This document shows positions 4,468 to 27,018 of a DNA stretch of 63,900 nucleotides, in pieces. The stretch covers positions 1-63,900 of the forward strand of contig DAIEHI010000096.1 in the NCBI GenBank assembly GCA_027355725.1. Reading direction: 5' to 3'. The notes under the pieces are model-generated. The model saw only the letters and a program-made list of their open reading frames with translations. It made no database searches and had not been told where the DNA came from. A program made the translations under genes and the position numbers. Source of the DNA: Acidimicrobiaceae bacterium (lineage in GTDB: Bacteria; Actinomycetota; Acidimicrobiia; Acidimicrobiales; RAAP-2). The stretch's first letter is position 1. Each line of letters opens with the position of its first letter.

Positions 4468-4473
4468 CCGATA

Positions 4474-5139: not shown

Positions 5140-5154
5140 CTCAGAGAGCGCGGT

Positions 5155-7349: not shown

Positions 7350-7499
7350 TGAACTCTTTCCCACTTTCGTGGGGGTCGAGACCACCCTTCCCCCACCGCA
7401 AATCGATGCTATCCACATCCGGGGCTCAAACAGGTGAGGCGAGGACTTCGTGACGAGAGCGAGCGTCGCTACCGTGAATACGGTTGAATGGGGTTGACC

Positions 7500-9570: not shown

Positions 9571-9576
9571 TCCATT

Positions 9577-9582
9577 AGTATA
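9577..9582 (-). promoter_or_regulatory. -10 element TATACT of rmlA
   Basis: TATACT on the minus strand, 6 nt before GTG 9570; it fits leaderless transcription and decides the start choice. Confidence 0.5.
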
Positions 9583-9621
9583 GAAGTCCACTAACCCCTT
9601 ACTAAAGGCCGAGGTAGTTCA

Positions 9622-10593: not shown

Positions 10594-10595
10594 TC

Positions 10596-11171: not shown

Positions 11172-11191
11172 TCCTGCGGGGTGTTCATTGC

Positions 11192-11197
11192 TAGCGT
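11192..11197 (+). promoter_or_regulatory. -10 element TAGCGT of deoC
   Basis: TAGCGT, 7 nt, then GTG 11205. It supports GTG 11205 over GTG 11181 as the deoC start and marks the head of the deoC operon. Confidence 0.45.
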
Positions 11198-11204
11198 TGG
11201 GCGA

Positions 11205-12197
11205 GTGAGTACAGTCCCGCTTCGACTTGTCGTACCAGACGAAATCGATGTCGTAATCGCTCGCTCCACTGATGCGCCGATTGTTGAGTCCGAAGCCCAA
11301 CTGCGCACGGTGTTGAGCAGCCTTTCGGGGGTGGACGCCGTTGGTGTGGAGGCGCGCGCCGCCAAGCTCGCGACCAGATCTATCAAGAAGTCGACGAAGA
11401 TGTCCGCCATCGACATGGCGATCTCAATGGTGGACCTGACGACACTGGAGGGTGCCGACACGCCGGGCCGAGTCCAATCCCTCTGCACCAAAGCGCTTCG
11501 CCCCGATCCACGGGACTTGACGGTTCCATCTGTCGCGGCGGTATGCGTCTATCCCGATCTCGTCGCACAGGCTCGAAGGACGCTCGCGGGCTCGGCCGTA
11601 GCGGTCGCGGCGGTCGCGACCGCATTTCCCTCGGGTCGCGCCTCCATGGCGGTCAAGTTGCTCGACGTTCGTGAAGCGGTCGCGGCGGGCGCCGACGAGA
11701 TCGACATGGTGATTGACCGAGGGGCGTTCCTCTCTGGGCGCCTGGGTCAGGTCTACGAGGAGATCGTCGCAGTGAAAGAAGCGTGTGGCGACGCGCACCT
11801 CAAGGTGATCCTCGAAACCGGTGAACTCGTGACGTACGACAACGTGCGCCGCGCCAGCTGGCTCGCGATGCTCGCGGGCGCCGATTTCATCAAGACTTCG
11901 ACTGGCAAAGTCGGTGTCAACGCGACACAGCCTGTGGCGCTCGTGATGCTTGAAGCAGTTCGTGACTTCGCTGAAACCAATGGCCGAGTGGTCGGTGTGA
12001 AGGTCGCCGGCGGGATCCGCACCACCAAGGACGCGATGAAGTACCTGGTCATCGTCAACGAGACTGCTGGTTCGGCGTGGTTGACGCCGCAGCGGTTTCG
12101 ATTCGGCGCCTCATCGTTGCTCAACGATTTGTTGATGCAGCGCCTCAAGCAGCAACGCGGGGCGTACGTTCGACCCGACGAATTCAGTGGGGATTGA
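11205..12197 (+). CDS. deoC: Deoxyribose-phosphate aldolase, long (animal-type) form
   Basis: Cleaves 2-deoxyribose-5-phosphate to glyceraldehyde-3-phosphate and acetaldehyde. The Schiff-base lysine is K230 in DFIKTSTGK; the second lysine is in VGVKVAGGIRTTKD. At 330 residues it is clearly longer than E. coli DeoC (259). The N-terminal SMVDLTTLEGADTPGRVQSL segment and the C-terminal WLTPQRFRFGASSLLNDL segment match the animal DERA layout as I remember it. It is the first gene of an apparent operon deoC-ALDH-ALDH'-punA-pgm in which neighbours overlap or nearly touch; the acetaldehyde product is the logical ALDH substrate. Confidence 0.92.
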   Translation: MSTVPLRLVVPDEIDVVIARSTDAPIVESEAQLRTVLSSLSGVDAVGVEARAAKLATRSIKKSTKMSAIDMAISMVDLTTLEGADTPGRVQSLCTKALRPDPRDLTVPSVAAVCVYPDLVAQARRTLAGSAVAVAAVATAFPSGRASMAVKLLDVREAVAAGADEIDMVIDRGAFLSGRLGQVYEEIVAVKEACGDAHLKVILETGELVTYDNVRRASWLAMLAGADFIKTSTGKVGVNATQPVALVMLEAVRDFAETNGRVVGVKVAGGIRTTKDAMKYLVIVNETAGSAWLTPQRFRFGASSLLNDLLMQRLKQQRGAYVRPDEFSGD

Positions 12198-12198
12198 C

Positions 12199-13665
12199 AT
12201 GAACGACAAGAACTTGGAGAAGTCTCGCTTAGGTGCGCTCGTCTACGATCCGGCCCCAGAGTCTGCGTCCATAGCGAACATCAAACCCAGTTACGGACTC
12301 TTCATCGACGGCGCCTTCAGCGATGCATCCTCACACGAGCACTTCGTCACGCTCAATCCCGCCACCGAAGAAGTCCTCTCGACAGTGTCGCGTGCGAGTG
12401 ACGCGGACGTGGACAGAGCGGTATCGAGTGCGCGCCGCGCCTATGAGAAGGTCTGGTCAAAGACGAGTGGTGCCGAGCGCGCAAAGTATCTTTTTCGCAT
12501 AGCTCGCCTCATCCAAGAGCGGTCGCGAGAACTGGCCGTGGTCGAAACCCTCGACAACGGCAAGCCGATCCGAGAGTCGCGCGACATCGACATTCCACTC
12601 GCCGCCGCACACTTCTTCTATTACGCCGGCTGGGCCGACAAACTCGATCACGCGGGGTACGGAGCGAACCCCCAACCACTCGGGGTTGCCGGTCAGATAA
12701 TCCCCTGGAATTTCCCATTGCTCATGGCGGCGTGGAAGCTGGCACCCGCGCTCGCCGCGGGCAACACCTGTGTCCTGAAGCCAGCCGAGACGACGCCTCT
12801 GACGGCGCTGGTGTTGGCCGAGATCCTTCAACAGGCGGAACTCCCGAGCGGCGTCGTCAACATCATCACCGGTGACGGCTCGACGGGAGCGGCTCTGGTC
12901 GAGCACCCGGGGGTCGACAAGATCGCTTTCACCGGCTCGACGGAGGTCGGCCGACTCATCCAGCAGCGCGTCGCGTCGAGCGCCAAGCACCTGACCCTCG
13001 AACTTGGCGGCAAGGGTGCGAACATCGTCTTTGAAGATGCGCCCATCGATGAGATGATCGAGGGCATCATTGATGGGATCTTCTTCAATCAAGGTCACGT
13101 CTGTTGCGCGGGTTCTCGCTTGCTCGTTCAAGAATCAATCGCTGATGAGGTGCTGCGTCGTCTCGTTCGTCGCGTTGAGCAGTTGCGCGTGGGCAACCCC
13201 ATGGACAAGAACACCGACGTGGGTGCAATCAACTCAGCCGCGCAGTTGGCGCGGATTGAAGAACTCACCGCCTTTGGCGAGCGAGAAGGAGCCACACGAT
13301 ATTCGAGTTCGTGCGTGTTGCCCGAGAAGGGTTACTGGTTCGCACCGACCGTCTTTGCTGATGTGGCTCAGTCCCACCGGATCGCGCGAGAAGAGATCTT
13401 CGGTCCGGTGCTCTCGGTGTTGAGTTTTCGTACGCCCGAAGAAGCGGTGGCCAAGGCGAACAACACCAACTACGGATTGGCGTGCGGCGTGTGGAGTGAG
13501 AAGGGAAGTCGTACGTTGTGGGTTGCTGAGCGTCTGAGGGCCGGTGTCATCTGGGCAAACACCTACAACCGCTTCGATCCAGCCAGCCCCTTTGGTGGTG
13601 TTCGCGAGTCGGGCTTTGGTCGTGAGGGTGGACGCCAGGGTTTGGAGGCGTACCTCAATGTCTGA
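12199..13665 (+). CDS. Aldehyde dehydrogenase, catalytic (ALDH16-like first half)
   Basis: NAD(P)-dependent aldehyde dehydrogenase of 488 residues, complete in motif terms: IIPWNFPLLMAAWKLAPALAAGN (nucleotide site), general base E268 in TLELGGKG, nucleophile C302 in NQGHVCCAGSR, EEIFGPVLSV, and the C-terminal ASPFGGVRESGFGREGG. It sits directly after deoC, so acetaldehyde from deoxyribose-5-phosphate is a likely substrate. The gene following it encodes only a catalytically empty ALDH half, and the two overlap by 8 bp. The sum (488 + 283 residues) resembles one ALDH16 chain, so I suspect a split ALDH16. Confidence 0.9.
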   Translation: MNDKNLEKSRLGALVYDPAPESASIANIKPSYGLFIDGAFSDASSHEHFVTLNPATEEVLSTVSRASDADVDRAVSSARRAYEKVWSKTSGAERAKYLFRIARLIQERSRELAVVETLDNGKPIRESRDIDIPLAAAHFFYYAGWADKLDHAGYGANPQPLGVAGQIIPWNFPLLMAAWKLAPALAAGNTCVLKPAETTPLTALVLAEILQQAELPSGVVNIITGDGSTGAALVEHPGVDKIAFTGSTEVGRLIQQRVASSAKHLTLELGGKGANIVFEDAPIDEMIEGIIDGIFFNQGHVCCAGSRLLVQESIADEVLRRLVRRVEQLRVGNPMDKNTDVGAINSAAQLARIEELTAFGEREGATRYSSSCVLPEKGYWFAPTVFADVAQSHRIAREEIFGPVLSVLSFRTPEEAVAKANNTNYGLACGVWSEKGSRTLWVAERLRAGVIWANTYNRFDPASPFGGVRESGFGREGGRQGLEAYLNV

Positions 13666-14509
13666 TCGTCTCGATGTGCGAAAGACCTACAAGTTGCTCA
13701 TCAACGGAGCGTTCCCACGTTCGGAGTCGGGACGAACCTACGAAGTGCTGAGTGAGCATGGTGACTTCCTTGCCAACGTGGCTCAAGGTTCGAAGAAGGA
13801 TGTGCGCGACGCGGTGGTGGCCGCGCGTGGCGCTCAGACCAAGTGGTCGAGTGCGAGTGCGTACAACCGCGGTCAGGTCATCTACCGCCTTGCTGAGATG
13901 GCCGAGTCACGCCGAGCTGAGCTTGGCGAGCACGTGGGTCTTGCGGAGGGCTTAGGAGCCAAACAATCGGCGAAGAGCGTGGCGAGGGCGATTGACCGCA
14001 TCGTGTGGTACGCGGGTTGGACTGACAAGATCGCCCAGGTCTTTGGCGGCGCGAACCCGGTGGCTGGCCCCTTCTTCAACTTCTCGGTCCCTAAGGCGTG
14101 CGGTGTGGTCGGGGTGGTTGCGCCTCAGGAGTCTTCACTCGAAGCCTTCGTCGACGCAGTCCTCGCGCCGATTTGCAGCGGTAACAGCGTCGTCGCCGTG
14201 GCGAGCGAGCGCCGCCCCACTCCGAGTGTCCTGCTCGGCGAAATGTCAGCGACGGCGGACTTTCCGCCAGGCGTGCTCAACATCCTCACGGGTGCCACAG
14301 GTGAACTCGCTCCGATTCTTGCCTCGCACGAAGATGTCGACGGTATTGACTTGAGCGGTCTTGACGAAGTCGTGGCGAATGAGCTGCACGCGCTCGCGGC
14401 GGGTTCGATCAAGCGCGTGTATCGCTCGGGCCACGACGCCCCAGCCTCAACGCGCCGACTGCGCGCCTTCATCGAGACCGCAACCGTATGGCACACGATT
14501 GGACAGTGA
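13658..14509 (+). CDS. Truncated, catalytically vestigial aldehyde dehydrogenase homologue
   Basis: A 283-residue protein homologous to the N-terminal (NAD-binding) part of an ALDH: YKLLINGAFPRSESGRTYEV, the coiled DVRDAVVAARGAQTKWS, WYAGWTDKIAQVFGG and the ACGVVGVVAPQESSLEAF block where a working enzyme would have PWN. It stops before the region that would carry the catalytic Cys, and no Cys loop or ELGG motif is present. It is intact, coupled (8-bp overlap with the upstream ALDH, TGATG junction with punA) and has normal codon use, so it is not a decayed gene. Most likely a structural partner of the upstream ALDH, like the second domain of ALDH16. Confidence 0.8.
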   Translation: MSDRLDVRKTYKLLINGAFPRSESGRTYEVLSEHGDFLANVAQGSKKDVRDAVVAARGAQTKWSSASAYNRGQVIYRLAEMAESRRAELGEHVGLAEGLGAKQSAKSVARAIDRIVWYAGWTDKIAQVFGGANPVAGPFFNFSVPKACGVVGVVAPQESSLEAFVDAVLAPICSGNSVVAVASERRPTPSVLLGEMSATADFPPGVLNILTGATGELAPILASHEDVDGIDLSGLDEVVANELHALAAGSIKRVYRSGHDAPASTRRLRAFIETATVWHTIGQ

Positions 14510-15327
14510 TGACGAATCCTTACGAACTCAGCCAGCATGCCGCCGACGCACTTCGCGAGCACAGCGGTGTCGACTCCTACGACATCGCAATCGTCCTCGG
14601 GTCGGGTTGGAAGGAGGGTGCCGAGTCACTCGGTACCGTCACGAGCTCCATCGCGACGACCGACTTACCCGGTTTCGTGGCACCCACGGTTGCGGGTCAC
14701 TCGGGTCAGATCATGTCGCTCGAGGTCGCGGGTAAGCACATCGCACTGGTGTCGGGTCGTGTGCACCTCTATGAGGGCAACACCGCTCACCAGGTCGTGC
14801 ACCCGGTACGCACCGTCGTCGCCGCGGGTGCGGGGACGGTGGTCTTGACCAACGCCTGTGGCGGTATTGATCCGACGATTGGCGCTGGATCGGTCGTGAT
14901 GATTCGAGACCACATCAACCTGACCGCGACGTCTCCCATGGAAGGTGATGCGCCGCCCGACGGTTACGGGGCGCGATTCGTTGACCTGACTGACTTGTAC
15001 AGTCAGAGACTGCGTGCTGGCGCGCACTCGGTCGCACCAGAACTCACTGAAGGTGTGTACGCCGGGTTTCGCGGTCCGCATTACGAGACACCCGCAGAGA
15101 TCAACATGGCGCGCACCATGGGCGCCACGCTCGTTGGCATGTCAACCGTGCTCGAGGCGATTGCGGCGCGTCACCTCGGCGCTGACGTGATGGGCCTCAG
15201 TCTCGTGTCGAACCTCGCCGCTGGAGTCTCAAGCACCCCGCTCAACCACCTCGAGGTCCTCGAGGCCGGTGAGCACGCCGCACGTTCCTTGGGCGACCTG
15301 CTGGGTCGACTCGTCCCGGTTCTGTGA
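14509..15327 (+). CDS. punA: Purine nucleoside phosphorylase (trimeric type)
   Basis: Phosphorolysis of purine (deoxy)nucleosides to base and (deoxy)ribose-1-phosphate. Motifs of the trimeric PNP/MTAP family: IAIVLGSGW, AGHSGQI, GRVHLYEGNTAHQVVHP, LTNACGGI, GPHYETPAEI and the GMSTVLEAIAARH/LVSNLAAG segment with the purine-contacting Asn. ATG 14509 overlaps the previous stop in a TGATG junction; ATG 14488 is an alternative that would add seven residues. 272 residues, normal for the family. Confidence 0.93.
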   Translation: MTNPYELSQHAADALREHSGVDSYDIAIVLGSGWKEGAESLGTVTSSIATTDLPGFVAPTVAGHSGQIMSLEVAGKHIALVSGRVHLYEGNTAHQVVHPVRTVVAAGAGTVVLTNACGGIDPTIGAGSVVMIRDHINLTATSPMEGDAPPDGYGARFVDLTDLYSQRLRAGAHSVAPELTEGVYAGFRGPHYETPAEINMARTMGATLVGMSTVLEAIAARHLGADVMGLSLVSNLAAGVSSTPLNHLEVLEAGEHAARSLGDLLGRLVPVL

Positions 15328-16979
15328 AACGCGAACTGCTGGCGAGCGTACGCGAGTGGATCGCGGGCGACCCCGACGAAGCCGACCGAGCGGTCCTCCA
15401 GCAACTCCTCGACCAGGGTGATGAAGAAGAGCTCCATCGTCGATTCGACACACCCCTCAGTTTCGGCACGGCGGGACTGCGCGGACCCGTCATGGCCGGA
15501 CCTGGGGGGATGAACCGTTATATGGTGCGACGCGCGACCCAGGGTGTCGTTTCGTGGCTCGAAGAGACCGGTGCGGACCCCATGGCTGGTGTCGTCGTGG
15601 GTCGAGACGCTCGCCACGGCTCAGAAGAGTTCAACGACGAGGTTGTTCGTGTACTGCTCGGTGCGGGCGTCAAGGTCATGGAGATGCCGCGACCTCTGCC
15701 AACGCCATTGGTGGCCTACTGCGTGAAGGTGTTGGGTGCAGCGGCCGGCATCATGATCACCGCCAGTCACAACCCACCCGAGGACAACGGCTACAAACTC
15801 TACGGTCCTGAGGGGTCCCAGATAATCCCTCCGAATGATCGGATTGTTGAGCGCTACGCGCTCGCCGCGAGCGAACCCGTCCTCGGTTCGCGCACGAGCA
15901 CGTTGCACCAGCCAATAGGTGACGACGTGCTCGATTCGTACTTCGAGCACTTCGCCCAGCGTTTTGTCGTACACGGTGGTACCGGTCTTCGAATCACGTA
16001 CACCCCTCTGCACGGCGTCGGTGGCGAGCCGATGATGCGACTCTTTCGAGACGCGGGGTACCGCCGTGTAGCCGTCGTTGATCAGCAATTCGTTCCTGAT
16101 GGCGATTTTCCGACGCTCGCATTCCCCAACCCCGAGGAGCCCGGTGCGCTGGACCTCGCCATGGAGCGCGCCGACGAGACGGGCTCGGCCCTCGTCGTGG
16201 CGAACGACCCCGACGCTGACCGACTCGGCGTTGCGGTCAATGCGCACGGCGGATGGAGAATCCTGCGCGGCGACGAGATTGGCTGGCTCCTCGCCTCGGC
16301 GCTGCTCGAAGAGATGGATCCCCAGCGCGACCTCGTGGCGACGACCATCGTGTCCTCGACGATGCTCGAGAAGATGGCGCGACGAGCCCGCATCCCCTAC
16401 ATCTCGACACTCACCGGATTCAAATGGATTGCCCGAGGTGACGGTGAGCGGACTCTGCGCTTCGGGTACGAAGAGGCGCTCGGCTTCGCCGTCGATCCGC
16501 TCGTCGCCGACAAGGATGGCATGTCCGCAGCACTGGCGTTGTGCCGGCTCGCGGAGCGTTTGAGCCACGAGGGCAAGTCATTGCTCGATCGCCTTGATGA
16601 GATCGAGCACGACTTCGGCGTTCACGCGGGCGGTCAGGTGTCACTGCGCGCCGAAGGACCGCACGCCAGTGAGATGATTCGTGACGCGGTGGCTCGCTTA
16701 CGCGCGACGCCTCCTTCGAGTCTTGGCGGACTTGCGGTGAGTGAGGTTGTCGACCTCGCTCAGGGTTGGCGAGGACTCATGGCAACCGATGGGGTCTACA
16801 TGCGTCTCGGTGACATGGGCCGGGTCGTCGTTCGCCCGTCGGGCACCGAGCCCAAATTGAAGGCCTACCTCGAGGTGACCCTCGCGCCCGACGACCGCCG
16901 CCTCGTTGAGCAGCGAGCCGAGGCGGGTCGGCACCTGCGTGGCGTGCGCGAAGACCTACAACGCCTCTTGAAGTTTTAG
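15324..16979 (+). CDS. Phosphopentomutase/phosphoglucomutase of the PGM2-like alpha-D-phosphohexomutase family
   Basis: A 551-residue mutase. FGTAGLRGPVMAGPGGMN, the phosphoserine loop TASHNPPEDNGYKLYG, the metal loop ANDPDADRLGVA, the sugar loop LTGFKWIARG with FGYEEALGF, and the phosphate loop RPSGTEPKLKAYLE are all present. This arrangement is that of PGM2-type enzymes, which in animals act as phosphopentomutases. After a nucleoside phosphorylase and in an operon with deoC, interconversion of (deoxy)ribose-1- and -5-phosphate is the sensible role. GTG start overlaps the PNP stop (GTGA). The end overlaps the convergent adenosine deaminase gene by 4 bp. Confidence 0.9.
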   Translation: MKRELLASVREWIAGDPDEADRAVLQQLLDQGDEEELHRRFDTPLSFGTAGLRGPVMAGPGGMNRYMVRRATQGVVSWLEETGADPMAGVVVGRDARHGSEEFNDEVVRVLLGAGVKVMEMPRPLPTPLVAYCVKVLGAAAGIMITASHNPPEDNGYKLYGPEGSQIIPPNDRIVERYALAASEPVLGSRTSTLHQPIGDDVLDSYFEHFAQRFVVHGGTGLRITYTPLHGVGGEPMMRLFRDAGYRRVAVVDQQFVPDGDFPTLAFPNPEEPGALDLAMERADETGSALVVANDPDADRLGVAVNAHGGWRILRGDEIGWLLASALLEEMDPQRDLVATTIVSSTMLEKMARRARIPYISTLTGFKWIARGDGERTLRFGYEEALGFAVDPLVADKDGMSAALALCRLAERLSHEGKSLLDRLDEIEHDFGVHAGGQVSLRAEGPHASEMIRDAVARLRATPPSSLGGLAVSEVVDLAQGWRGLMATDGVYMRLGDMGRVVVRPSGTEPKLKAYLEVTLAPDDRRLVEQRAEAGRHLRGVREDLQRLLKF

Positions 16980-18067
16980 CTCGCGCGAAGGGCGGCGTAG
17001 CCCGGCTTGATGACCGTATTGATCATCGCAAGGCGCTGATCGAACTGATAGAAGGTGCTCTTCGCGGCGTTGAGGGTGAGCCACTCCATATCGTCAAGAT
17101 TCCAATTGAAAGCCTTGGCGCACGTCTCGAACTCGCTGCTCATCGTGATGCCGCTCATGAGTCGATTATCGGTATTGAGCGTCACACGAAAGCGCAACTG
17201 TCGAAGCAGTTCAATGGGGTGGGCTGCTATTGAGGCCGCGGCGCCCGTGTGCACGTTGGACGTGGGACATACCTCGAGTGGGATCCGTCGATCTCGCACG
17301 AAGTTGGCTAGTCGACCCAATTCGTAGTGGTCGCCTACGCGCGTGATGTCGTCGACGATGCGTACACCGTGTCCGAGACGCTCTGCGTCACAGAACTGCA
17401 CCGCTTCCCAGATCGAGGGCAGACCGAAGGCTTCGCCCGCGTGGATGGTCATATGGAAGTTCTCACGCTGGATCAGATGAAACGCACTCAGATGTTCAGT
17501 CGGTGGAAAGCCGTCTTCGGGCCCGGCGATGTCGAAGCCGCATACGCCCTCATCACGAAAGTTGACCGCGAGTCGGGCGATCTCCTCGCTGCGATTGTTC
17601 TGGCGCATCGCCGAGAGGATCGGGCGAACGACGATGTCGTGGCCCTCCATCGACGCCTGGCGGGTACCGTGGGCGAAGCCCGCGAGCACCGCAGTCACGA
17701 TCTCATTGAGTGTGAGACCACGGTGCGTGTGCAACTCGGGCGCGAAACGGACCTCGGCGTAGACAACGCCGTCACGTGCGAGGTCGAGAGCACTCTCGCT
17801 CGCGACCCGCTCCAGCTGCTCCTTGGTCTGCATCACCGCCGTGGTGTGTGCGAAACCCTCGAGGTAGCGCACCAGGTCGCTGCCTGGCGCGTCGGCGATG
17901 AACCAGCGGGCGAGCTCTTCAGGGTCACTCGTGGGTAGTCCCTTGTAGTCGATGTCGCGTGCGAGTTCGAGCACCGTGGCGGGACGCAGCCCTCCGTCAA
18001 GGTGCTCGTGTAGGACTACCTTGGGCGCTCGTTCGATGATTTCGCGGGTGAGTGGGATGCCTGACAT
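16976..18067 (-). CDS. add: Adenosine deaminase
   Basis: Deaminates adenosine and deoxyadenosine to (deoxy)inosine. The zinc ligands and catalytic residues are visible: HEHLDG at residues 20-25, HAGEAFG, RLGHGVRI, CPTSNVHTG and LNTDNRLMSG. The last motif has Asn where many family members have a second Asp (NTDDP-like); the first, metal-binding Asp is kept. 363 residues. A TAACCT element 6 nt upstream of ATG 18067 gives it its own promoter. It heads a minus-strand group with its stop overlapping the mutase. Confidence 0.92.
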   Translation of the reverse strand: MSGIPLTREIIERAPKVVLHEHLDGGLRPATVLELARDIDYKGLPTSDPEELARWFIADAPGSDLVRYLEGFAHTTAVMQTKEQLERVASESALDLARDGVVYAEVRFAPELHTHRGLTLNEIVTAVLAGFAHGTRQASMEGHDIVVRPILSAMRQNNRSEEIARLAVNFRDEGVCGFDIAGPEDGFPPTEHLSAFHLIQRENFHMTIHAGEAFGLPSIWEAVQFCDAERLGHGVRIVDDITRVGDHYELGRLANFVRDRRIPLEVCPTSNVHTGAAASIAAHPIELLRQLRFRVTLNTDNRLMSGITMSSEFETCAKAFNWNLDDMEWLTLNAAKSTFYQFDQRLAMINTVIKPGYAALRAS

Positions 18068-18073
18068 GGGACA

Positions 18074-18079
18074 AGGTTA
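18074..18079 (-). promoter_or_regulatory. -10 element TAACCT of add
   Basis: TAACCT ends 6 nt before ATG 18067 on the minus strand; no Shine-Dalgarno sequence fits in the gap. Confidence 0.45.
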
Positions 18080-18095
18080 CTCACCTGATGGAGTC

Positions 18096-19376
18096 CTACT
18101 TCGAGATTCGCTCTAGCAACACGGGCTCGTGAATGACTGGTTCCTCACCGAGCACGACCGCCGTGGCGAGGGTGTCGCGCCCTCGTGCGAGGTGTTCGTC
18201 GTCGTCGGCGAAGAGTTCGAAGAGGGGCTGGCCCGCTTCGACGAACTCTCCCACTCGAGCGAGGCACACAATGCCCGCTCCGGCGCTGACCGGGTCTTCT
18301 TTTCTTGCGCGACCCGCGCCGAGTCGCCACGCGGCGACACCGACGTCGAGAGCATCCATTTGTTGGATGATGCCGTCCTGAGGGGCGAGGAACACATCCT
18401 TGTGGGAGCCTTCAGCGAGTTGCGCGTCCGGGTCGCCGCCCTGGGCCTCGATCATGGCGCGATAGACGCCGTAGGCGGAACCGTCATCGAGTTTGGACGC
18501 AGGGTCGGTGTCGATTCCAACCAACTCGAGCATCGTGCGCGCGAGCGAGAGGGTGAGCTCTCGCACGTCGTTGGGTCCTGCGCCCCTTAAGACGTCTACG
18601 GACTCGATCACTTCGAGTGCGTTGCCAACGGCGCGACCGAGAGGCTGGTTCATCGACGTCAGTTGCGCCACGGTGGCGACACCATGATCAGTCCCGAGTG
18701 ACACCATGGTCTGTGCGAGTTGAAGAGCTCGATCATGGGATTTGATGAACGCGCCGCGGCCGACCTTGACGTCGAGCACGAGTGCGTTGGTCCCTTCGGC
18801 GATCTTCTTTGACATGATCGAAGACGAGATGAGCGGGATGGACTCCACCGTCCCGGTCACGTCGCGAAGCGCGTACAGCCTTCGATCGACTGGTGCGAGT
18901 CCTTGTCCTGCGGCACAGATCACCGCCCCCACGTCTTCGAGTTGGTCGCGAATCTCCTCGTTGGAGAGCAATGCACGCCAGCCAGGAATTGACTCGAGCT
19001 TGTCGAGCGTGCCACCGGTGTGACCGAGGCCGCGTCCCGACAATTGAGGTACCGCCGCGCCGCACGCCGCGACCAGTGGCGCCAGGATCAGAGAGATCTT
19101 GTCACCGACACCACCCGTTGAGTGTTTGTCAACCGTTGGGCGAGAGAGCCCCTTCAGGTCCAATCGTTCACCCGAGGCGATCATCCGATCGGTCCAGGTG
19201 AGCAGCTCTCGAGGATCCAATCCGTTGAAGAAGATCGCCATCAACAGTGCAGACATCTGTTCATCGGCAACGTCGCCGCGCATGTAAGCGTCGAGCATCC
19301 AGGTGATTGCGTCGTCGCCGAGGGCACCCCCGTCACGCTTGGTCGTTATGACGTCCACTGCCGAGAAAGTACTCAC
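18096..19376 (-). CDS. deoA: Thymidine / pyrimidine-nucleoside phosphorylase
   Basis: Phosphorolysis of thymidine, deoxyuridine and possibly uridine. The diagnostic phosphate-binding motif DKHSTGGVGDKISLILAP is near residue 82; SGRGLGHTGGTLDKLESIPG follows, then LTSMNQPLGRAVGNALEV. 426 residues, normal for the family. Its ATG 19376 overlaps the cdd stop by 4 bp, so cdd-deoA is a translationally coupled unit: deoxycytidine is deaminated, then phosphorolysed. Confidence 0.94.
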   Translation of the reverse strand: MSTFSAVDVITTKRDGGALGDDAITWMLDAYMRGDVADEQMSALLMAIFFNGLDPRELLTWTDRMIASGERLDLKGLSRPTVDKHSTGGVGDKISLILAPLVAACGAAVPQLSGRGLGHTGGTLDKLESIPGWRALLSNEEIRDQLEDVGAVICAAGQGLAPVDRRLYALRDVTGTVESIPLISSSIMSKKIAEGTNALVLDVKVGRGAFIKSHDRALQLAQTMVSLGTDHGVATVAQLTSMNQPLGRAVGNALEVIESVDVLRGAGPNDVRELTLSLARTMLELVGIDTDPASKLDDGSAYGVYRAMIEAQGGDPDAQLAEGSHKDVFLAPQDGIIQQMDALDVGVAAWRLGAGRARKEDPVSAGAGIVCLARVGEFVEAGQPLFELFADDDEHLARGRDTLATAVVLGEEPVIHEPVLLERISK

Positions 19377-19792
19377 GAACTCTTCCTCGTGTCGAGGTCA
19401 CCCGGGCCGAAGGCGTCTGGAAGCAGTTCGTGCAGATGGCGAGGTGGTCTTTCGGGTCCGTCATCGACGAGGAGTCCGCCGCCACCGTGCTCGTAGAGCA
19501 CTTGACGACAGCGCCCGCACGGCGCGATCGGCTTCTCGTCTCCGGCCACGATCGTCACCGCGGCAAGTCTTCCTCCGCCGAGTCGTGCGAGATCGCTCAC
19601 GAGTGAGCACTCAGCACACAAGGTGAGACCATAACTCGCATTCTCCACGTTGGCGCCCGTCACGAAGCGACCATCCGTCGTGTAGCCGCACGCCCCGACA
19701 CGCACATTCGAGTAGGGGGCGTAGGACGTCGTCGTGGCGAGTCGCGCCCGTTCGCGCAACTCTTCCCACGGGATCTCGTTGAGTGAACTCAC
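19373..19792 (-). CDS. cdd: Cytidine deaminase
   Basis: Zinc deaminase of 139 residues: SYAPYSNVRVGA, VENASYGLTLCAECSLV (zinc Cys and catalytic Glu) and PCGRCRQVL (two more zinc Cys). I place the start at GTG 19792 because TACTGT ends exactly 6 nt upstream and the protein then begins at the usual distance before the family motifs; the frame runs on far upstream but antisense to psuG. The C-terminus reaches into deoA. Confidence 0.92.
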   Translation of the reverse strand: MSSLNEIPWEELRERARLATTTSYAPYSNVRVGACGYTTDGRFVTGANVENASYGLTLCAECSLVSDLARLGGGRLAAVTIVAGDEKPIAPCGRCRQVLYEHGGGGLLVDDGPERPPRHLHELLPDAFGPGDLDTRKSS

Positions 19793-19798
19793 AATCAA

Positions 19799-19808
19799 AC
19801 AGTACACT
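19799..19808. promoter_or_regulatory. Overlapping divergent -10 elements of cdd (-) and psuG (+)
   Basis: Minus-strand TACTGT (19804 to 19799) ends 6 nt before cdd GTG 19792. Plus-strand TACACT (19803-19808) ends 9 nt before psuG ATG 19818. The two hexamers share two base pairs, and the whole gap between the start codons is 25 bp. The -35 regions of each promoter would lie inside the other gene. Confidence 0.55.
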
Positions 19809-19817
19809 TCGCTGTGC

Positions 19818-20747
19818 ATGAGAAATTTCCACGAAGTCCCAATGAGGTTGCACGAAGAAGTTGCTAGCGCGTTGATCGAGGGTCGCGGAGTCGTCGCCCT
19901 CGAGACCACGATTGTTGTCCAAGGACTGCCGGCGCCGACGAACATTGACGTGGCGCGCGAATGTGATTCTGCGGTGCGTTCAAGTGGTTCGGTGCCCGCC
20001 ACCATTGGCATCCTTGACGGCGAGATCATCGTTGGAATGACGATGGAGGAATTGGAGCGACTCGCGGACCCGTCGCGTGGCGCCGCCAAGCTGTCAGCCC
20101 GTGACGTCGGGCTTGCGCTGGCGAGCGGCGTCGACGGGGCGACCACAGTCGCGGGCACGATCGCCATTGCCGAGAAGGCGGGCATCAAGGTCATGGCGAC
20201 GGGTGGGCTCGGAGGGGTCCATCGTGACGCCGTGCGTAGTTTTGACGAATCGGCTGATCTGACCGCACTGTCGCGCACTTCGATCCTGGTGGTGGCCTCA
20301 GGTGTGAAGTCGATCCTTGATATCGGTGCGACACTGGAGCGACTTGACTCGCTCGGGGTCGCAATCGCGGGATATCGCACGCGCCAGTTCCCTGGCTTCT
20401 ATCGCAGCGACAGCGGATTCGAACTGGACTGGTCACTCGAGGATCCCGCTCAGGCGGCGACAGCGTTCATCGCGCATCAGCGTCTCTCAGGCTCGGGACT
20501 GCTGGTCGCGAACCCTGTTGACCAGGATCGACAGTTGGATGGTCAACTTCACGACAATGCGCTCGAGAGTGCGCTCGCGATGGCCCAACGCCTCGGCGTG
20601 AGTGGCAAAGACGTCACGCCCGTCCTGCTCGCCGAGTTTGCCCGCTTCAGTGAGGGCCGAAGTGTGCAGGTGAACAAGGATCTCGTCGTGGCCAACGCAC
20701 TGCTCGCGGGCGAGATCGCGATGGAGATCGCCAGAGCGAAGCGGTGA
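19818..20747 (+). CDS. psuG: Pseudouridine-5'-phosphate glycosidase
   Basis: Splits pseudouridine-5'-phosphate into uracil and ribose-5-phosphate. Recognised from VALETTIVVQGLPAPTN near the N-terminus, GVPATIGILDGEI-type spacing, VMATGGLGGVHRDA (phosphate and Mn site), DLTALSRTSILVVASGVKSILDI and the C-terminal PVLLAEFARFSEGRSVQVN. 309 residues from ATG 19818. It is coupled to the kinase gene downstream by a 4-bp overlap. Confidence 0.95.
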   Translation: MRNFHEVPMRLHEEVASALIEGRGVVALETTIVVQGLPAPTNIDVARECDSAVRSSGSVPATIGILDGEIIVGMTMEELERLADPSRGAAKLSARDVGLALASGVDGATTVAGTIAIAEKAGIKVMATGGLGGVHRDAVRSFDESADLTALSRTSILVVASGVKSILDIGATLERLDSLGVAIAGYRTRQFPGFYRSDSGFELDWSLEDPAQAATAFIAHQRLSGSGLLVANPVDQDRQLDGQLHDNALESALAMAQRLGVSGKDVTPVLLAEFARFSEGRSVQVNKDLVVANALLAGEIAMEIARAKR

Positions 20748-21619
20748 GTGCGCGCGTCGTCGTCATCGGTGACGCCATGCTTGATGTGATCGTGCGACCG
20801 CTCGGCCCAGTAGCGCCAACCAGTGACACGCCGTCTCGCATCAGGATCTCTCGTGGAGGCTCGGCGGCGAATATAGCGGTCGCCCTCGCGCGAAGCTGTG
20901 CCGTCACCTACGTTGGCGTCGTGGGCGACGACGAGACCGGGGCGATGTTCGCTCGCGACCTCGAGCACGCTGGGGTCGTCGCACGCCTCCACGTCGTCCC
21001 TGGCTCGACGGGTGTGGTGGTCGCAATGGTCGATTCAGACGGTCAGCGCGCGATGATGAGCGACCGGGGCGTCAACCCTGAGCTGTCCATGGATCATGTT
21101 CACGAGGTGTTGAGCGGACGCTTCGATCATCTGCACGTGTCGGGGTACACGGTGCTCGACGCCGCGACTCGTCACGTTGCGAGCGCGGCGCTCAGACTCG
21201 CACGAGACCGTGGCGCGTCGACGTCAGTCGACGCGTGCTCTGTCGCCCCGCTCGAGCGAATGGGCGCCGATGAGTTCCTCGGCGCGATAGGGCGGGTGAC
21301 CATGCTCTTCTCCAATGAGGAGGAAGCGTTGGCGCTGTCACGCGAGGGTGACGTTGAGTCGGCGAGCCAACGGCTCAGTTCGCTCGTTGACGAAGTGGTT
21401 ATCACACGTGGCCCCTTGGGTGCGCTCGTTCGTCGAGGCTCCGAGTACTGGTTGGCTCACTCGAGGAATGTAGAGGTGCTCGACACCACTGGTGCCGGTG
21501 ACGCCGCAACGGGTGCGTACGTGGCGGCTCGTCTAGGGGGTAGTGCCTGTGACGAGGCTCTGGAACTCGCCATGGCGAGCGCGGCACAGGTCGTGGGCCA
21601 TCTGGGTGCCAGCGACTGA
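20744..21619 (+). CDS. psuK: PfkB-family sugar kinase, probable pseudouridine kinase
   Basis: Ribokinase-fold kinase of 291 residues: N-terminal GDAMLDVIV, SRGGSAANIAVALAR, the ITRGPLGALV strand and the C-terminal anion hole and catalytic Asp in DTTGAGDAATGAYVA. The GTG start inside the psuG stop makes a psuG-psuK operon, and psuK supplies psuG with its phosphorylated substrate; that context supports the specificity. Ribose or another nucleoside would be the alternative substrate. Its stop is 1 bp from the convergent permease gene. Confidence 0.85.
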   Translation: MSARVVVIGDAMLDVIVRPLGPVAPTSDTPSRIRISRGGSAANIAVALARSCAVTYVGVVGDDETGAMFARDLEHAGVVARLHVVPGSTGVVVAMVDSDGQRAMMSDRGVNPELSMDHVHEVLSGRFDHLHVSGYTVLDAATRHVASAALRLARDRGASTSVDACSVAPLERMGADEFLGAIGRVTMLFSNEEEALALSREGDVESASQRLSSLVDEVVITRGPLGALVRRGSEYWLAHSRNVEVLDTTGAGDAATGAYVAARLGGSACDEALELAMASAAQVVGHLGASD

Positions 21620-21620
21620 G

Positions 21621-22928
21621 CTATTCGCGGTGATAGGGAATGCCGTCGGCGGCGGGGGCGCGGACACGTCCGATGAGCCCTGAGACAACGGCGATGGTGA
21701 TCACGTAGGGGAACATGTTGAGGATGTACGTCGAGACCGGCACGTTGTAGGTCTGCAGGTTCTGGGACAGGTAGACCGACAGACCGAAGAGGACTGACGC
21801 TACGACTGCGCCCGAGGGTCGCCAACGACCGAAGATCATGGCGGCCAGTGCGATATAGCCGAGTCCCGATGTGTAGCCGGGCTGGAACTGACCTTGCGAT
21901 GCCATGAAGGCAACGCCTCCGACACCCGCAATGGCGCCACCCAGGACGACGTTGATGTATCGCACTCGAATCACGTTGATGCCCACCGTCGCAGCGGCTC
22001 GCGGATGTTCACCGACTGCTCGCACGTGCAGGCCGTAGCGGGTCTTGAAGAGCGCGAAGCTGACCGCTCCGACCAGTATCAGCATGAAGTAGAAGAAGCC
22101 CGACTGATCAAAGAAGACGGGTCCGATGATGGGAATCTTCGAGATGAGTGGAATTGCGAGGTTGGGTGCGAGAGTACCGGTGTTGAACTGAGGGAATGGC
22201 GTGAAGACCTGCAAGTTCAAGTACGAAGAGAAGCTCCCGATCATCGTGACGAGTACCACGCCCACGATGATCTGATCCGAGAGGTAGCGAAGCGAGAGGA
22301 ACGCGAGGAGAAGTCCGAGAAGCCCGCCTATCACCGCTCCACCAAGAGCCGCGAAGATGAAACTGTGGGTGGTCGAGGCGAGCATGGTACCGACGAAGGC
22401 TCCACCGATGAACTGGCCTTCAATGGCGATGTTCACAACACCCGAACGCTCGCACATCACTCCCGACAGTGATCCAAAGATGAGCACCATCGCGACTTCG
22501 GAGCTACCAATGAGCACCGCGGTCAGATTGATGACCGATACGGGTGAGGGGCCGGGGGTGCGCACCACCCAAAAGAGCAGCGCCAACAAGAACAACACCG
22601 CGACGACGCCGAATCGAACCATCACCGCACGTCGAGGCGAGCGCAGTACGACTTCGACGCCAAGTGCGATCATCAACACGGCGATAACAAGATTGACCCA
22701 CCGAGTCACGACGGTCAGATTTCCGAGATGCCAGGGTGCGTTCGAGAGGTTGACCGGATTGAAGGTCAGCCCCGAGTGCGCGGCACTCGAGACGCCCAAG
22801 GCGAAGACCAGACCGGTGAAGAGCCCGATGCCGATCATGATGGCACCGATTGCTCGTGTTCGTCCGTTGGCGGCGACCGAGACTTCGATACTTGTTGGTG
22901 TGGCGCTGGCGATGCTCACGAGTTCCAT
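21621..22928 (-). CDS. Nucleoside ABC transporter permease (NupQ/BmpD type)
   Basis: A 435-residue BPD_transp_2 family permease with about ten membrane segments. The family pattern is clear in SGVMCERSGVVNIAIEGQFIGGAFVG and the coupling region VRAVGEHPRAAATVGINVIRVRY. The C-terminal half carries GYIALAAMIFGRWRPSGAV, characteristic of this type. The N-terminal region has an additional hydrophobic section. It is the last gene of bmpA-ATPase-permease-permease and overlaps the preceding permease by 13 bp. Confidence 0.9.
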   Translation of the reverse strand: MELVSIASATPTSIEVSVAANGRTRAIGAIMIGIGLFTGLVFALGVSSAAHSGLTFNPVNLSNAPWHLGNLTVVTRWVNLVIAVLMIALGVEVVLRSPRRAVMVRFGVVAVLFLLALLFWVVRTPGPSPVSVINLTAVLIGSSEVAMVLIFGSLSGVMCERSGVVNIAIEGQFIGGAFVGTMLASTTHSFIFAALGGAVIGGLLGLLLAFLSLRYLSDQIIVGVVLVTMIGSFSSYLNLQVFTPFPQFNTGTLAPNLAIPLISKIPIIGPVFFDQSGFFYFMLILVGAVSFALFKTRYGLHVRAVGEHPRAAATVGINVIRVRYINVVLGGAIAGVGGVAFMASQGQFQPGYTSGLGYIALAAMIFGRWRPSGAVVASVLFGLSVYLSQNLQTYNVPVSTYILNMFPYVITIAVVSGLIGRVRAPAADGIPYHRE

Positions 22929-24169
22929 CCCTTCGTTGCGAGCTGGACGGTGGCGGTGGGCGAGGTGCGCAGTCGGAAGATCTCCTTCACGAGCACGGGA
23001 GTCGCTACGAACAAGACGACGGCCGATTGGATGATGGTCGCGAGGTCTAGGGGAATGCCGGTGCTTGCCTGCATGGAGCGACCACCGACACCCAGTGCCG
23101 CGAACAACAGTGAAGCCCAGACAATGCCCATTGGCCGATTGCGACCAAGGAGGGCGACCGTGATGGCGGTGAAGCCGATGCCGGCATTGCCGATCAAGAA
23201 TCCACCGTCAATGAAGTGGGTCGTGCTCGCGGCTTGGACGATGCCGGCGAGACCGGCCAGTCCGCCCGAGATGAGAAAGACCAGCACCATGATGGCGCGT
23301 GAGTTGATCCCAGAGGCTCGCGCTGCGGTGGGGTTGGCACCGGTGACCCGAAAGTCGAAACCAAGTGAAGACCGGTCAAGGAACCACCACGCGAAGACCA
23401 CGACGGCCGCGGCGACAAAGATGCCGTAGCTGACGCGCAGACCCGATGCCACGCCGAAGATGGGCGCGAGCTGTGACGACGGATCCATCATCCGAGAGAT
23501 GTCGTTCTGCTGGCCCGGTTGTTGCAGGGGTGTGGAAAGCACGGCGAAGAGCAGGAACGCGTAGACAACGTAGTTGAGCATGATCGTGACGATCACCTCA
23601 TGTGCCCCGGTGTAGGCCTTCAAGAGGCCAGGTATGGCACCCGCGATGACGCCGCCCGCGAGGCCCGCGAGCAACGTCAGGGGAATGTGGATAATGGTCG
23701 GCATGTGCAGCATCGAGCCAACGGTCGCCCCGGCGATGCCACCGAGCACTGCTTGACCGTTGGCGCCAATATTGAAGATGCCGGTCTGGAACGCGATGCC
23801 AACACCCATGCTCGCAATGATCAGCGGCGTTGCGTAGGTCAGCGTCTCAGAGATGGGCGTCAGGGTTGCGTCCCAGCCCTTACCCGTGGTCAGGGAATGC
23901 CACAGTCCGGGTGGGTCGATGATTGAGCCGGTGAACATCGAGCGGTACGCCGCACCGACGTTGTCAGCGGTGATCTTCACGGCCCGCCACGGTGAACTCC
24001 AGCTGTGAAAAATGTCGCGCCAGCTATTGAGAATGACCGGCGTGGTGAAGATGATGATGAGCGCCCCAAGTACGAGTCCCAGGATCAAGGCAATAAACGC
24101 GATGGTGATGGGACTCGTTGAGGAGAAGCGCCGTCGAAGAGACGATAAGCGGTTCGTGGAATCAGACAT
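22916..24169 (-). CDS. Nucleoside ABC transporter permease (NupP/BmpC type)
   Basis: About 417 residues, BPD_transp_2 family, pairing with the next permease to form the channel. GIAFQTGIFNIGANGQAVLGG and DFRVTGANPTAARASGINSRAIM are the matching family motifs. Start ATG 24169 is preceded by AGAGAG with 5 nt spacing; GTG 24175 is the alternative. The start lies inside the end of the ATPase gene, as expected for a coupled operon. Confidence 0.9.
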   Translation of the reverse strand: MSDSTNRLSSLRRRFSSTSPITIAFIALILGLVLGALIIIFTTPVILNSWRDIFHSWSSPWRAVKITADNVGAAYRSMFTGSIIDPPGLWHSLTTGKGWDATLTPISETLTYATPLIIASMGVGIAFQTGIFNIGANGQAVLGGIAGATVGSMLHMPTIIHIPLTLLAGLAGGVIAGAIPGLLKAYTGAHEVIVTIMLNYVVYAFLLFAVLSTPLQQPGQQNDISRMMDPSSQLAPIFGVASGLRVSYGIFVAAAVVVFAWWFLDRSSLGFDFRVTGANPTAARASGINSRAIMVLVFLISGGLAGLAGIVQAASTTHFIDGGFLIGNAGIGFTAITVALLGRNRPMGIVWASLLFAALGVGGRSMQASTGIPLDLATIIQSAVVLFVATPVLVKEIFRLRTSPTATVQLATKGWNS

Positions 24170-25676
24170 GTTCACTCTCTGAGGTCGTACCGGTCATGAG
24201 CAGTCCAATGGCTTCGCGACTGGTGCTCGGATCGACGATGCCACTGATCTTGCCCGCGTACATGACCGCTATGCGGTCACCGAGGGCGAGCACCTCATCG
24301 AGCTCTGAGGAGACGATGAGCGACGCGTTGCCCTTGTTGCGGTGATCGACGATCTGCTTGTGGACGTACTCGATTGAGCCGACGTCGAGACCGCGGGTGG
24401 GCTGGGATGCCATGAGAAAGTCAAGGGGGCGCGAGAGTTCGCGCGCCACGATGACCTTCTGTTGGTTGCCGCCCGAGAGTGAACTGGCGTCTTCGTAGAT
24501 AGAGGTCGTGCGGATATCAAACTCCTGGACCAAGCGCTCGGCGTTCTCTTTGACCGCCGCGAGGTTCCTTGAGCCGTGCTTGGCGAATGGAGCACGACGT
24601 GGGGTGTTGAGTACCAGGTTGTCGGCCACTGACATCGACAACACGAGTCCATCACGGTGGCGGTCTTCGGGGATATGGCCGAGACCCGCGTCAAGGACTC
24701 GACGTGGAGACGCGTTGGTGATGTTTCGACCCTTCAGGGTGATGGTGCCCGACTCCACGTGACGCATGCCGGCGATCGCCTCGACGAGTTCGGTCTGGCC
24801 ATTGCCCTGAACACCGGCCAGAGCGAGGATCTCGCCCGCGCGTACGTCGAGCGAGACGCCGTTCACCGCAATGAGCCCTCGGTCGTCGCGCACCACGAGG
24901 TCGCGGATTTCGAAGACCTCCTCACCCGGAGTGAACGTGGACTTCTCGACCGTGAGATTCACGTCACGTCCAACCATCAGTGAGGCGAGTTCGCCCTCGC
25001 TGTCAGTGGGCTGGGCGGTACCCACCACACGACCTTGGCGGATGACGGTGATCACGTCGGCGACGGCCTTGACCTCTTTCAATTTGTGAGTGATGAAGAG
25101 GATCGACTTGCCCGCGGCGGCGAGTGAGCGCATGATGTCCATCAGCGCATCGATCTCCTGTGGCGTGAGGACCGCAGTGGGTTCATCGAGGATCAAGAGT
25201 TCGGCGTCGTGGCTGAGCGACTTGAGTATCTCGACACGCTGTTGGAGACCAACGGGGAGATTCTCGACAATCGCGTCGGGATCGACGTCGAGATTGAATT
25301 CCTTGGAAACGCGCCGGATATCGTCGGTCGCCTTCTTGTAGTCGACGCGGTTGATCGACTTGGTGGGTTCGAATCCCAGCACGACGTTCTCGGTGACGGT
25401 GAAGACGGGCACGAGCATGAAGTGTTGGTGCACCATGCCGATGCCACGTCGCACGGCTTCGCCTGAGTCTTCGAACTTGACTGGTTCCCCGTCGATGATG
25501 ATCTCACCTTCGTCGGGGTGCAACAGCCCGAAAAGGACGTTCATCAAGGTGGATTTGCCCGCACCGTTTTCACCAAGTAAGCAGTGAATCTGCCCGGGTT
25601 CGACGGTGATGCTGATTTGGTCGTTGGCGGTGAATGAGCCAAATCGTTTGGTTATGCCGCGCAGTTCTAGTCGCAT
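24162..25676 (-). CDS. Nucleoside ABC transporter ATPase, two ABC domains (NupO type)
   Basis: A 504-residue fusion of two ATPase domains. Domain 1: Walker A LLGENGAGKST near residue 35, a degenerate signature region NLPVGLQQRVEIL, and Walker B LLILDEPTAVLTP. Domain 2 has a degenerate Walker A (ALAGVQGNGQTEL), LSGGNQQKV and a modified Walker B. This asymmetry is normal for the RbsA/NupO class. It is separated from bmpA by a strong hairpin, so it probably receives only part of the transcripts that start before bmpA. Confidence 0.92.
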   Translation of the reverse strand: MRLELRGITKRFGSFTANDQISITVEPGQIHCLLGENGAGKSTLMNVLFGLLHPDEGEIIIDGEPVKFEDSGEAVRRGIGMVHQHFMLVPVFTVTENVVLGFEPTKSINRVDYKKATDDIRRVSKEFNLDVDPDAIVENLPVGLQQRVEILKSLSHDAELLILDEPTAVLTPQEIDALMDIMRSLAAAGKSILFITHKLKEVKAVADVITVIRQGRVVGTAQPTDSEGELASLMVGRDVNLTVEKSTFTPGEEVFEIRDLVVRDDRGLIAVNGVSLDVRAGEILALAGVQGNGQTELVEAIAGMRHVESGTITLKGRNITNASPRRVLDAGLGHIPEDRHRDGLVLSMSVADNLVLNTPRRAPFAKHGSRNLAAVKENAERLVQEFDIRTTSIYEDASSLSGGNQQKVIVARELSRPLDFLMASQPTRGLDVGSIEYVHKQIVDHRNKGNASLIVSSELDEVLALGDRIAVMYAGKISGIVDPSTSREAIGLLMTGTTSESEHV

Positions 25677-25690
25677 CAGATTTCATCGTA

Positions 25691-25735
25691 CTAATGAACA
25701 CGACCCGGGCGTGGTGCCCGGGTCGTGTTCATTAG
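25691..25735 (-). terminator. Perfect 20-bp hairpin between bmpA and the transporter ATPase gene
   Basis: Arms 25691-25710 and 25716-25735 are perfect inverted copies (each begins or ends with CTAATGAACACG and GCCCGGG), with a 5-nt loop. No T-run follows on the minus strand. Placed between a binding-protein gene and its transporter genes, it more likely protects the bmpA mRNA end or partly terminates than acts as a full terminator. Confidence 0.8.
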
Positions 25736-25760
25736 TCACATCCGCTGTTAGCGGTGATTG

Positions 25761-26861: not shown

Positions 26862-27018
26862 TATTTCTCCCTTGTTGTAGTCAGTCTGTATGGAAACGAC
26901 TGTCCAATCGTGTTGTGCTTCCCCGACATGGTCGCCAAACACGCTCAGATGTTTATCATGGCGAGACTAGCCCTCTGGTGAGAGGAGCACCTGGGGCGCT
27001 GTATGAATTCTGTGGTAA

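Follow-up and report, generated by a model that had tools for sequence, protein, structure and literature searches.

Two overlapping genes on the forward strand of a 63,900-nucleotide stretch from an Acidimicrobiaceae bacterium (assembly GCA_027355725.1, contig DAIEHI010000096.1, positions 1 to 63,900; hereafter, the window) are each homologous to one half of ALDH16, a member of the aldehyde dehydrogenases (ALDHs). The two genes occupy separate reading frames, the second has a start of its own, they co-occur across genomes, and they are linked to deoC, the gene for deoxyribose-phosphate aldolase (DeoC). We consider it probable that the pair constitutes a two-chain ALDH16 oxidizing the acetaldehyde released by DeoC, with the product of gene 2 (chain B) completing the dimer interface of the product of gene 1 (chain A); both the binding and the activity are what we infer. 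An earlier note, made from the letters of the window, had given coordinates for the pair that a sequence check showed to be exact, and had reported an 8-bp overlap that indeed exists as ATGTCTGA. The pair comprises the following elements:

12199..13665, forward strand, ATG at 12199 to TGA at 13665: gene 1, aldA-like, a complete catalytic ALDH of 488 amino acids and the counterpart of the ALDH16 N-terminal domain (from sequence, alignments and tree).
13658..14509, forward strand, ATG at 13658 to TGA at 14509: gene 2, aldB-like, a stand-alone ALDH16 C-terminal domain of 283 amino acids, whose predicted fold is that of an ALDH lacking the catalytic domain (from sequence, AlphaFold2 model and profile).
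13658..13665, forward strand: the 8-bp overlap ATGTCTGA, holding the gene-2 start and the gene-1 stop.
13644..13648, forward strand: GGAGG, a Shine-Dalgarno-like site within gene 1, 9 bases 5' of the gene-2 ATG.

Gene 1 scored 501 bits against the N-terminal domain of Loktanella ALDH16 (residues 10-475), the next ALDH reaching 427 bits. For gene 2, the assignment was decided by a family profile built from gene 2 of the window together with 66 relatives, each from a split pair. This profile gave 194.9 bits to the Loktanella C-terminal domain, aligned to residue 766, and 152.4 bits to the best other solved ALDH; likewise, the C-terminal domains of twelve out of twelve fused proteins scored between 194.5 and 228.8 bits, as opposed to at most 129.9 bits for seven ordinary ALDHs of this genome, and ALDH16 domains alone aligned to the last profile position. 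Single-domain scores are used here because the values for the whole ALDH16 chain—130 bits with the single sequence and 268.6 bits with the profile—are sums over two stretches. In the single-sequence search, the ALDH16 match reached gene-2 residue 280, most other ALDHs ending near 254-262. A joint tree of 91 rows, made by a quick method, placed gene 1 with the fused N-terminal domains (support 95, starred) and gene 2 with the fused C-terminal domains (100 in the Shimodaira-Hasegawa-like approximate likelihood ratio test, starred), and a careful tree of 56 rows held gene 1 and the fused N-terminal domains together with 99/99 support against an outgroup of five distantly related ALDHs from the source genome. 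Each chain is hence nearest to its own ALDH16 domain, with a complete ALDH in the N-terminal part, an ALDH-like second domain, and a matching grouping in the trees. The family profile thus supports the identification of gene 2 as a separately encoded ALDH16 C-terminal domain, and the view of gene 2 as an N-terminal fragment of an ordinary ALDH was rejected because of its profile score, the end point of its alignment and its fold, with single-sequence scores alone being indecisive. Since the two domains are encoded by separate genes in the window and in 98/98 pairs examined, we class the system as a two-chain ALDH16 variant and not as a canonical member. The proposal of the earlier note—an unfused ALDH16 consisting of a full ALDH and then a non-catalytic domain—is therefore sustained by profile scores and trees; its own caveat, that gene 2 might align best to ordinary ALDHs, ended in a near tie by single sequence and in favor of ALDH16 by family profile.

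The product of gene 2 appears to be an ALDH fold without its middle. It matches only the first half of the Pfam Aldedh family (positions 6-232 of 461, 120 bits), and its AlphaFold2 model, built on an alignment of 67 sequences, is confident (mean predicted local distance difference test score [pLDDT] of 93.3 and predicted template modeling score of 0.91). When this model was used in a Foldseek search, the top three hits were bacterial ALDH16 structures with E values of 5e-25 to 7e-25, classic ALDHs coming just behind. In a VIA alignment, residues 7-283 of gene 2 were matched to residues 16-497 of human ALDH2 (273 aligned residues, root-mean-square deviation of 2.0, Z of 36.1). Because this structural match spans nearly the whole length of classic ALDHs, the deletion is placed internally: according to the model, about 210 residues are missing from inside the protein, so that the catalytic domain is gone but the C-terminal strand remains. 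The last strand (residues 272-280) is positioned like the C-terminal strand of ALDH2 in the model alignment, and it is conserved among gene-2 proteins (T276 in 99/99, W278 in 98/99 and H279 in 98/99). The earlier note had taken gene 2 for an N-terminal ALDH region stopping before the cysteine domain; the length of 283 residues and the lack of a catalytic domain stand, but the C-terminal strand is present and the deletion is internal. Absence of the catalytic domain with its cysteine is a property of the second ALDH16 domain and not of classic ALDHs. Moreover, the alignment of gene 2 shows no conservation of the PWNFP, KPAE and FTGS motifs, which would make NAD (nicotinamide adenine dinucleotide) binding by this chain unlikely.

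Gene 1 carries the catalytic residues, located as follows (residue counts refer to an alignment of the window and 97 relatives):

13000..13002, forward strand: E268 codon of gene 1, the general base, E in 98/98.
13102..13104, forward strand: C302 codon of gene 1, the catalytic cysteine, C in 97/98.

Both motifs had been named in the earlier note, and they are conserved and exactly placed in the numbering of the protein itself. In the same 98-sequence alignment, PWNFP, the KPAE lysine and FTGS are nearly invariant. The general base Glu268 is replaced in ALDH6A1, a CoA-acylating enzyme of the methylmalonate-semialdehyde dehydrogenase type (excerpts of PMC10650815); gene 1, with its fully conserved E268, does not share this feature. 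Window gene 1 terminates 13 residues past R475 (R in 97/98 gene-1 sequences), ahead of the ALDH C-terminal strand, and the pattern of this strand was not found in any of the 96/96 gene-1 sequences having the GxGRE motif—so the catalytic chain lacks the C-terminal oligomerization strand that classic ALDHs carry. A loss of Arg264 in gene 1, suspected from H264 of the window, was dropped because this position is K or R in 83/98 sequences. Separately, one locus (L069, a Planktophila metagenome-assembled genome) has one in-frame stop within gene 1, from either a sequencing error or decay.

The arrangement of the two genes indicates two separate chains. With overlap lengths depending on our own choice of gene-2 start, the genes overlap by 4 bases in 41 of 98 loci, by 8 in 26, by 1 in 10 and by 11 in one, and gaps of 1-235 bases separate them in 20/98 pairs; furthermore, in one genus they stand 0.6-2.1 kb apart with other open frames in between (L156, L157 and L158). 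Shine-Dalgarno-like sites lie ahead of gene 2 in 63/97 loci, including 24/26 of those having the 8-base overlap, versus 73/1351 internal ATG/GTG codons. Both this start signal and the variable spacing speak for independent translation, and not for frameshifting. The overlap sequence ATGTCTGA itself is found at the gene-2 start in 28/29 loci that reach the site, window included, out of a genus set of 30 (a contig end truncates L029, and L036 does not have the sequence). Programmed frameshifting at ATGTCTGA, joining the two frames into a fused ALDH16 product, would agree with a short overlap whose sequence is conserved in the genus; we nevertheless deem it highly improbable, since the spacing within the 98 loci ranges from an 11-base overlap to a 235-base gap, and reaches 2.1 kb elsewhere, and since gene 2 has its own start, often with a Shine-Dalgarno-like site.

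Selection on gene 2 is indicated by five comparisons with dN (nonsynonymous divergence) of 0.09-0.18 versus dS (synonymous divergence) of 1.1-1.9, the latter being close to saturation, and gene-2 length has a median of 288 amino acids (range 265-306) in 98 loci across the phylum under our start rule. Together with its conservation in 32/37 genus genomes, the low dN relative to dS confirms that gene 2 is intact, as the earlier note had held. A frameshift, a pseudogene and an assembly error were each discarded for gene 2 given the conservation of both frames, the variable spacing, the low dN/dS and the gene's own start; the sequencing frameshift that the earlier note had itself raised is excluded because both reading frames are conserved. 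Pseudogenization or misassembly of a once-complete ALDH gene could account for the missing catalytic domain, but gene 2's similar length phylum-wide, low dN/dS, confident fold and presence in many independent assemblies leave this explanation with a negligible probability.

We also examined how widely the split form is distributed. A clear copy of gene 2 is present in 34/61 genomes, i.e., in 32/37 within the genus (the source genome included) and in 2/24 outside. In a draw of 395 genomes from the class, 121 matched the gene-2 profile at an E value of 1e-40 or better, one of which (G071, 142 bits) resembles an ordinary ALDH. A second draw, of 396 genomes from the phylum Actinomycetota, gave 91 matches, 84 of them at 304 bits or above and seven at about 150 bits or below. 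Eleven of these 84 had an open frame of at least 700 amino acids, and all proved split on inspection, as did the total of 13 such cases inspected in the two draws; in the remaining genomes of the 84-member set the open frames could not accommodate a fused chain, apart from G606 and G530, which start at a contig end and cannot be judged. No fused copy was thus found in the class and phylum draws wherever the matches were clear of contig ends. A gene-1 search of the same 396 genomes, with four matches at 48-49% identity set aside, recovered 83 carriers, 82 of them with both genes; as the three single-gene genomes are contig-end cuts, 85/85 carriers show both genes by the thresholds used.

A genome scan extended this picture. 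Among the best 80 of 586 confirmed loci, ranked by likeness to window gene 2, 77 are named as Actinomycetota, ranging from Acidimicrobiaceae to Streptomyces, Amycolatopsis, Nocardioides and Microbacterium; gene 1 lies on 78 of these 80, and 78/78 are split, which becomes 98/98 with 20 further genomes. These scan loci are uninformative on fused forms, because the ranking excludes fused proteins at about 36% identity. The split form is therefore widespread in Actinomycetota and not peculiar to this genome. As to its origin, a single clade of split gene-1 proteins is not rejected by the approximately unbiased test (p = 0.479), a result compatible with either fusion or fission.

A few loci stand apart. 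On the same stretch as L137, L161 bears at positions 4014-7434 a divergent deoC-A-B set from another family of the same order, in which identity to the window is 44% for gene 1 and 37% for gene 2, and gene 1 is without the usual GxGREGG end; this set possibly represents a second subfamily, either older or transferred. Actinobacterial-type split pairs also occur in L066, titled Rubrivirga sp. (Rhodothermota), and L106, titled Acidobacteria bacterium, contigs that are probably misbinned unless the genes were transferred. Finally, L072, a metagenome-assembled genome titled Streptomyces griseus isolate MH-21oct19-64, groups in the joint tree with a 1-Mb genome and not with Streptomyces, so that its name looks wrong.

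The fused counterpart was surveyed in Proteobacteria, on plasmid records. With Sinorhizobium meliloti ALDH16 as the query, 154 records matched at an E value of 1e-130, and in 149 of them a single site covered 80% or more of the chain. The twelve fused genes that we read have open frames of 772-799 amino acids, and deoC is directly upstream in 12/12—eleven by annotation and the one of Caballeronia insecticola by tblastn. The comparison of fused and split forms beside deoC that the earlier note had proposed consequently has a clear outcome: the pair is split in Actinomycetota and fused in Proteobacteria, and both forms follow deoC.

How the two chains might join is suggested by the residues that ALDH2 uses at its dimer interface, whose equivalents are distributed over both genes:

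14414..14416, forward strand: R253 codon of gene 2, which we take to be the equivalent of ALDH2 Arg264, from sequence alignment to retinal dehydrogenase; R in 99/99.
14471..14497, forward strand: residues 272-280 of gene 2, the C-terminal strand; E273 is taken as ALDH2 Glu487, with the register anchored at the point where the structural match ends (gene-2 residue 283 at ALDH2 497) and no gap assumed.
13621..13623, forward strand: R475 codon of gene 1, the equivalent of ALDH2 Arg475 and, on the basis of excerpts of PMC8910853, predicted acceptor of a bridge from gene-2 E273; R in 97/98.

In ALDH2, Glu487 bonds with Arg264, which lies in the same subunit, and with Arg475 of the neighboring subunit, and the Glu487Lys substitution leads to a disordered NAD site and a weaker dimer (excerpts of PMC8910853 and PMC8160307, the second for the substitution and both for the bonds, with the location of Arg264 from the first). 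Of the gene-2 sequences, 99/99 have R at position 253 and 99/99 have E or D at position 273. Chain A would act as the NAD-dependent catalytic subunit and chain B as a pseudo-subunit having the dinucleotide-type and oligomerization domains of an ALDH without the catalytic domain. The two would join via the classic ALDH dimer interface in the same assembly as a fused chain, B providing the C-terminal strand that A is missing, and the E273/R253 pair of B would anchor the R475 loop of A in the manner of Glu487-Arg264-Arg475 in ALDH2. Within an A-B pair, only the B-to-A direction of this contact is possible, and its residues are kept in B (R253 and E273) and in A (R475). Two chains of fused Loktanella ALDH16 imitate the classic ALDH tetramer, according to the review account excerpted from PMC8160307, and by this analogy we predict an (AB)2 assembly for the split pair. 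A without B would be expected to resemble Glu487Lys ALDH2, with poor NAD binding and weak dimers.

A stable A-B heteromer is thus the arrangement that we favor, as an inference from sequence. Alternatively, the product of gene 2 could be a separate protein not bound stably to that of gene 1, such as a scaffold for DeoC or a ligand-sensing regulator whose Rossmann domain is degenerate. In favor of this, deoC too is tightly linked (92/98 loci), the confident model of gene 2 was obtained with no partner (pLDDT 93), and A and B are 0.6-2.1 kb apart in one genus. However, the two are a single chain in the fused homologues, both genes are found in 85/85 carriers, and the strand carried by B is the one missing from A, all of which renders the separate protein unlikely, if still worth bearing in mind.

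The genomic context of the pair points to the pathway it may serve. At 92 of the 98 loci (74/78 scan loci and 18/20 further ones), a deoC gene of the same orientation is located no more than 400 bp upstream, and three of the four misses among the scan loci begin near a contig end. The neighboring genes of the window are these:

11181..12197, forward strand: deoC, deoxyribose-phosphate aldolase, ending one base before gene 1 (TIGR00126, 183 bits, cut-off 117).
14509..15327, forward strand: purine-nucleoside phosphorylase, overlapping the gene-2 stop by one base with the chosen start, an earlier start at 14488 being possible (NF006054, 310 bits, cut-off 218).
15324..16979, forward strand: protein of the phosphohexomutase superfamily (PGM_PMM I-III), a candidate phosphopentomutase by inferred role.
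16976..18067, reverse strand: adenosine deaminase (NF006847, 560 bits, cut-off 412).
18096..26942: rest of the island, with a pyrimidine nucleoside phosphorylase (reverse), a cytidine deaminase-like gene (reverse, start uncertain) and PsuG-like and PfkB genes (forward).
Within 18096..26942, reverse strand: two BPD_transp_2 permeases, an ABC ATPase and a Bmp/PnrA-like binding protein.

The order deoC-A-B-pnp-pmm thus runs with a 1-base gap followed by overlaps of 8, 1 and 4 bases (for the chosen pnp start), and we read the genes from 11181 to 26942 as a compact island for nucleoside uptake and breakdown. DeoC of the window has 338 amino acids, of which the family model covers residues 81-300 only, with about 80 N-terminal residues outside; in five examined cases, the DeoC encoded beside fused ALDH16 is similarly long (314-338 amino acids). 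Directly upstream of the island, at 8788-11171, are genes of the dTDP-rhamnose type (nucleotidyl transferase, dehydratase and 3,5-epimerase).

The products of DeoC are glyceraldehyde 3-phosphate and acetaldehyde (excerpts of PMC6365646 and PMC8346489), and with an ALDH encoded directly after deoC, the simplest role of this dehydrogenase would be to remove the acetaldehyde—most likely by oxidizing it to acetate in deoxynucleoside breakdown. The A-B heteromer could instead act on an aldehyde other than the one from DeoC, as the ribokinase and aldose epimerase genes included in some proteobacterial neighborhoods might hint; yet the place directly after deoC is conserved in two phyla and in both split and fused forms, and we see little likelihood in a different substrate.

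Several observations weigh against a two-chain ALDH16 acting on acetaldehyde and have to be set beside the evidence above. With gene 2 as a single sequence, the ALDH16 C-terminal domain (500-764 of 767) and retinal dehydrogenase come close to a tie (99.7 versus 103.2 bits), and fused C-terminal domains score 99.8-146.6 bits versus 102.8 bits for one paralogue. The grouping of gene 2 with fused C-terminal domains in the joint tree includes a long shared branch of 1.27. On the structural side, the Foldseek lead of ALDH16 over classic ALDHs is small, and the rows of the VIA alignment are classic ALDHs lying within 1.5 Z units of one another, with no ALDH16 among the 50 listed. Residue 487 is acidic in 38/96 gene-1 chains, so some A chains own an acid, and the notion that gene 1 never has one at this position was dropped. 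The AlphaFold2 model of A alone is of middling confidence (pLDDT 74, with weak loops at about 448-478); it was built on a smaller and less varied alignment than that of gene 2 and was not used for any conclusion. In 11 fused C-terminal domains—a small sample of related sequences—the equivalent of R253 is R in three and the position of 273 is acidic in two, the Loktanella domain keeping both; as the pair is mostly lost there, the bridge is not required in every ALDH16. Lastly, acetaldehyde is a putative substrate, proposed from gene neighborhood.

ALDH16 is a poorly understood ALDH family, and its conserved place after deoC provides a concrete candidate pathway. A natural two-chain version makes the role of the second domain testable by omission and re-addition, which is impossible with a fused protein; if the proposed arrangement is true, it would also offer a natural half-dimer with one direction of the ALDH2 Glu487-Arg475 contact, useful for studying a disease-related interface. 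Going further, ALDH16 might at root be a DeoC partner: the assembly would hand toxic acetaldehyde from DeoC to A, B would complete A and dock DeoC, the chains would be separate in Actinomycetota and one in Proteobacteria and animals, and the purine link of human ALDH16A1 (HPRT1 and gout) would be a remnant—a speculative scenario that we think improbable as a whole.

In a literature search on ALDH16, deoxyribose breakdown and Actinobacteria, which was not exhaustive, we found no split ALDH16, and the two-chain form is provisionally considered new. The closest known system is bacterial ALDH16 (Loktanella, PDB 6mvr, 6mvs, 6mvt and 6mvu; Sinorhizobium, Agrobacterium, Paracoccus and Caballeronia), which has the same order of a catalytic ALDH and then a non-catalytic domain; the fused genes read also follow deoC and keep the R475 equivalent. 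It differs in being one chain (772-799 amino acids in the 12 read), whereas here there are two chains and no linker, and in keeping the R253/E273 pair in few of 11 proteins, as opposed to its invariance in 99 split ones. Human ALDH16A1 has the two-domain order of gene 1 plus gene 2. Excerpts of PMC10650815 describe the human protein as a pseudoenzyme without catalytic residues, of unclear function and linked to gout, whereas gene 1 has these residues. The classic tetrameric ALDHs (ALDH2, ALDH1A1 and betaine ALDH) share their catalytic motifs with gene 1, and their coenzyme/oligomerization fold and Glu487/Arg264 equivalents with gene 2; in contrast to them, gene 1 ends before the C-terminal strand and gene 2 is without the catalytic domain, PWNFP, KPAE and FTGS. 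A parallel in gene organization is provided by the DmpG-DmpF aldolase-dehydrogenase channeling complex, in which an acetaldehyde-making aldolase is likewise encoded beside the dehydrogenase using it—although DmpF belongs to a different, CoA-acylating kind of enzyme, while in gene 1 Glu268 is present, as in hydrolytic ALDHs.

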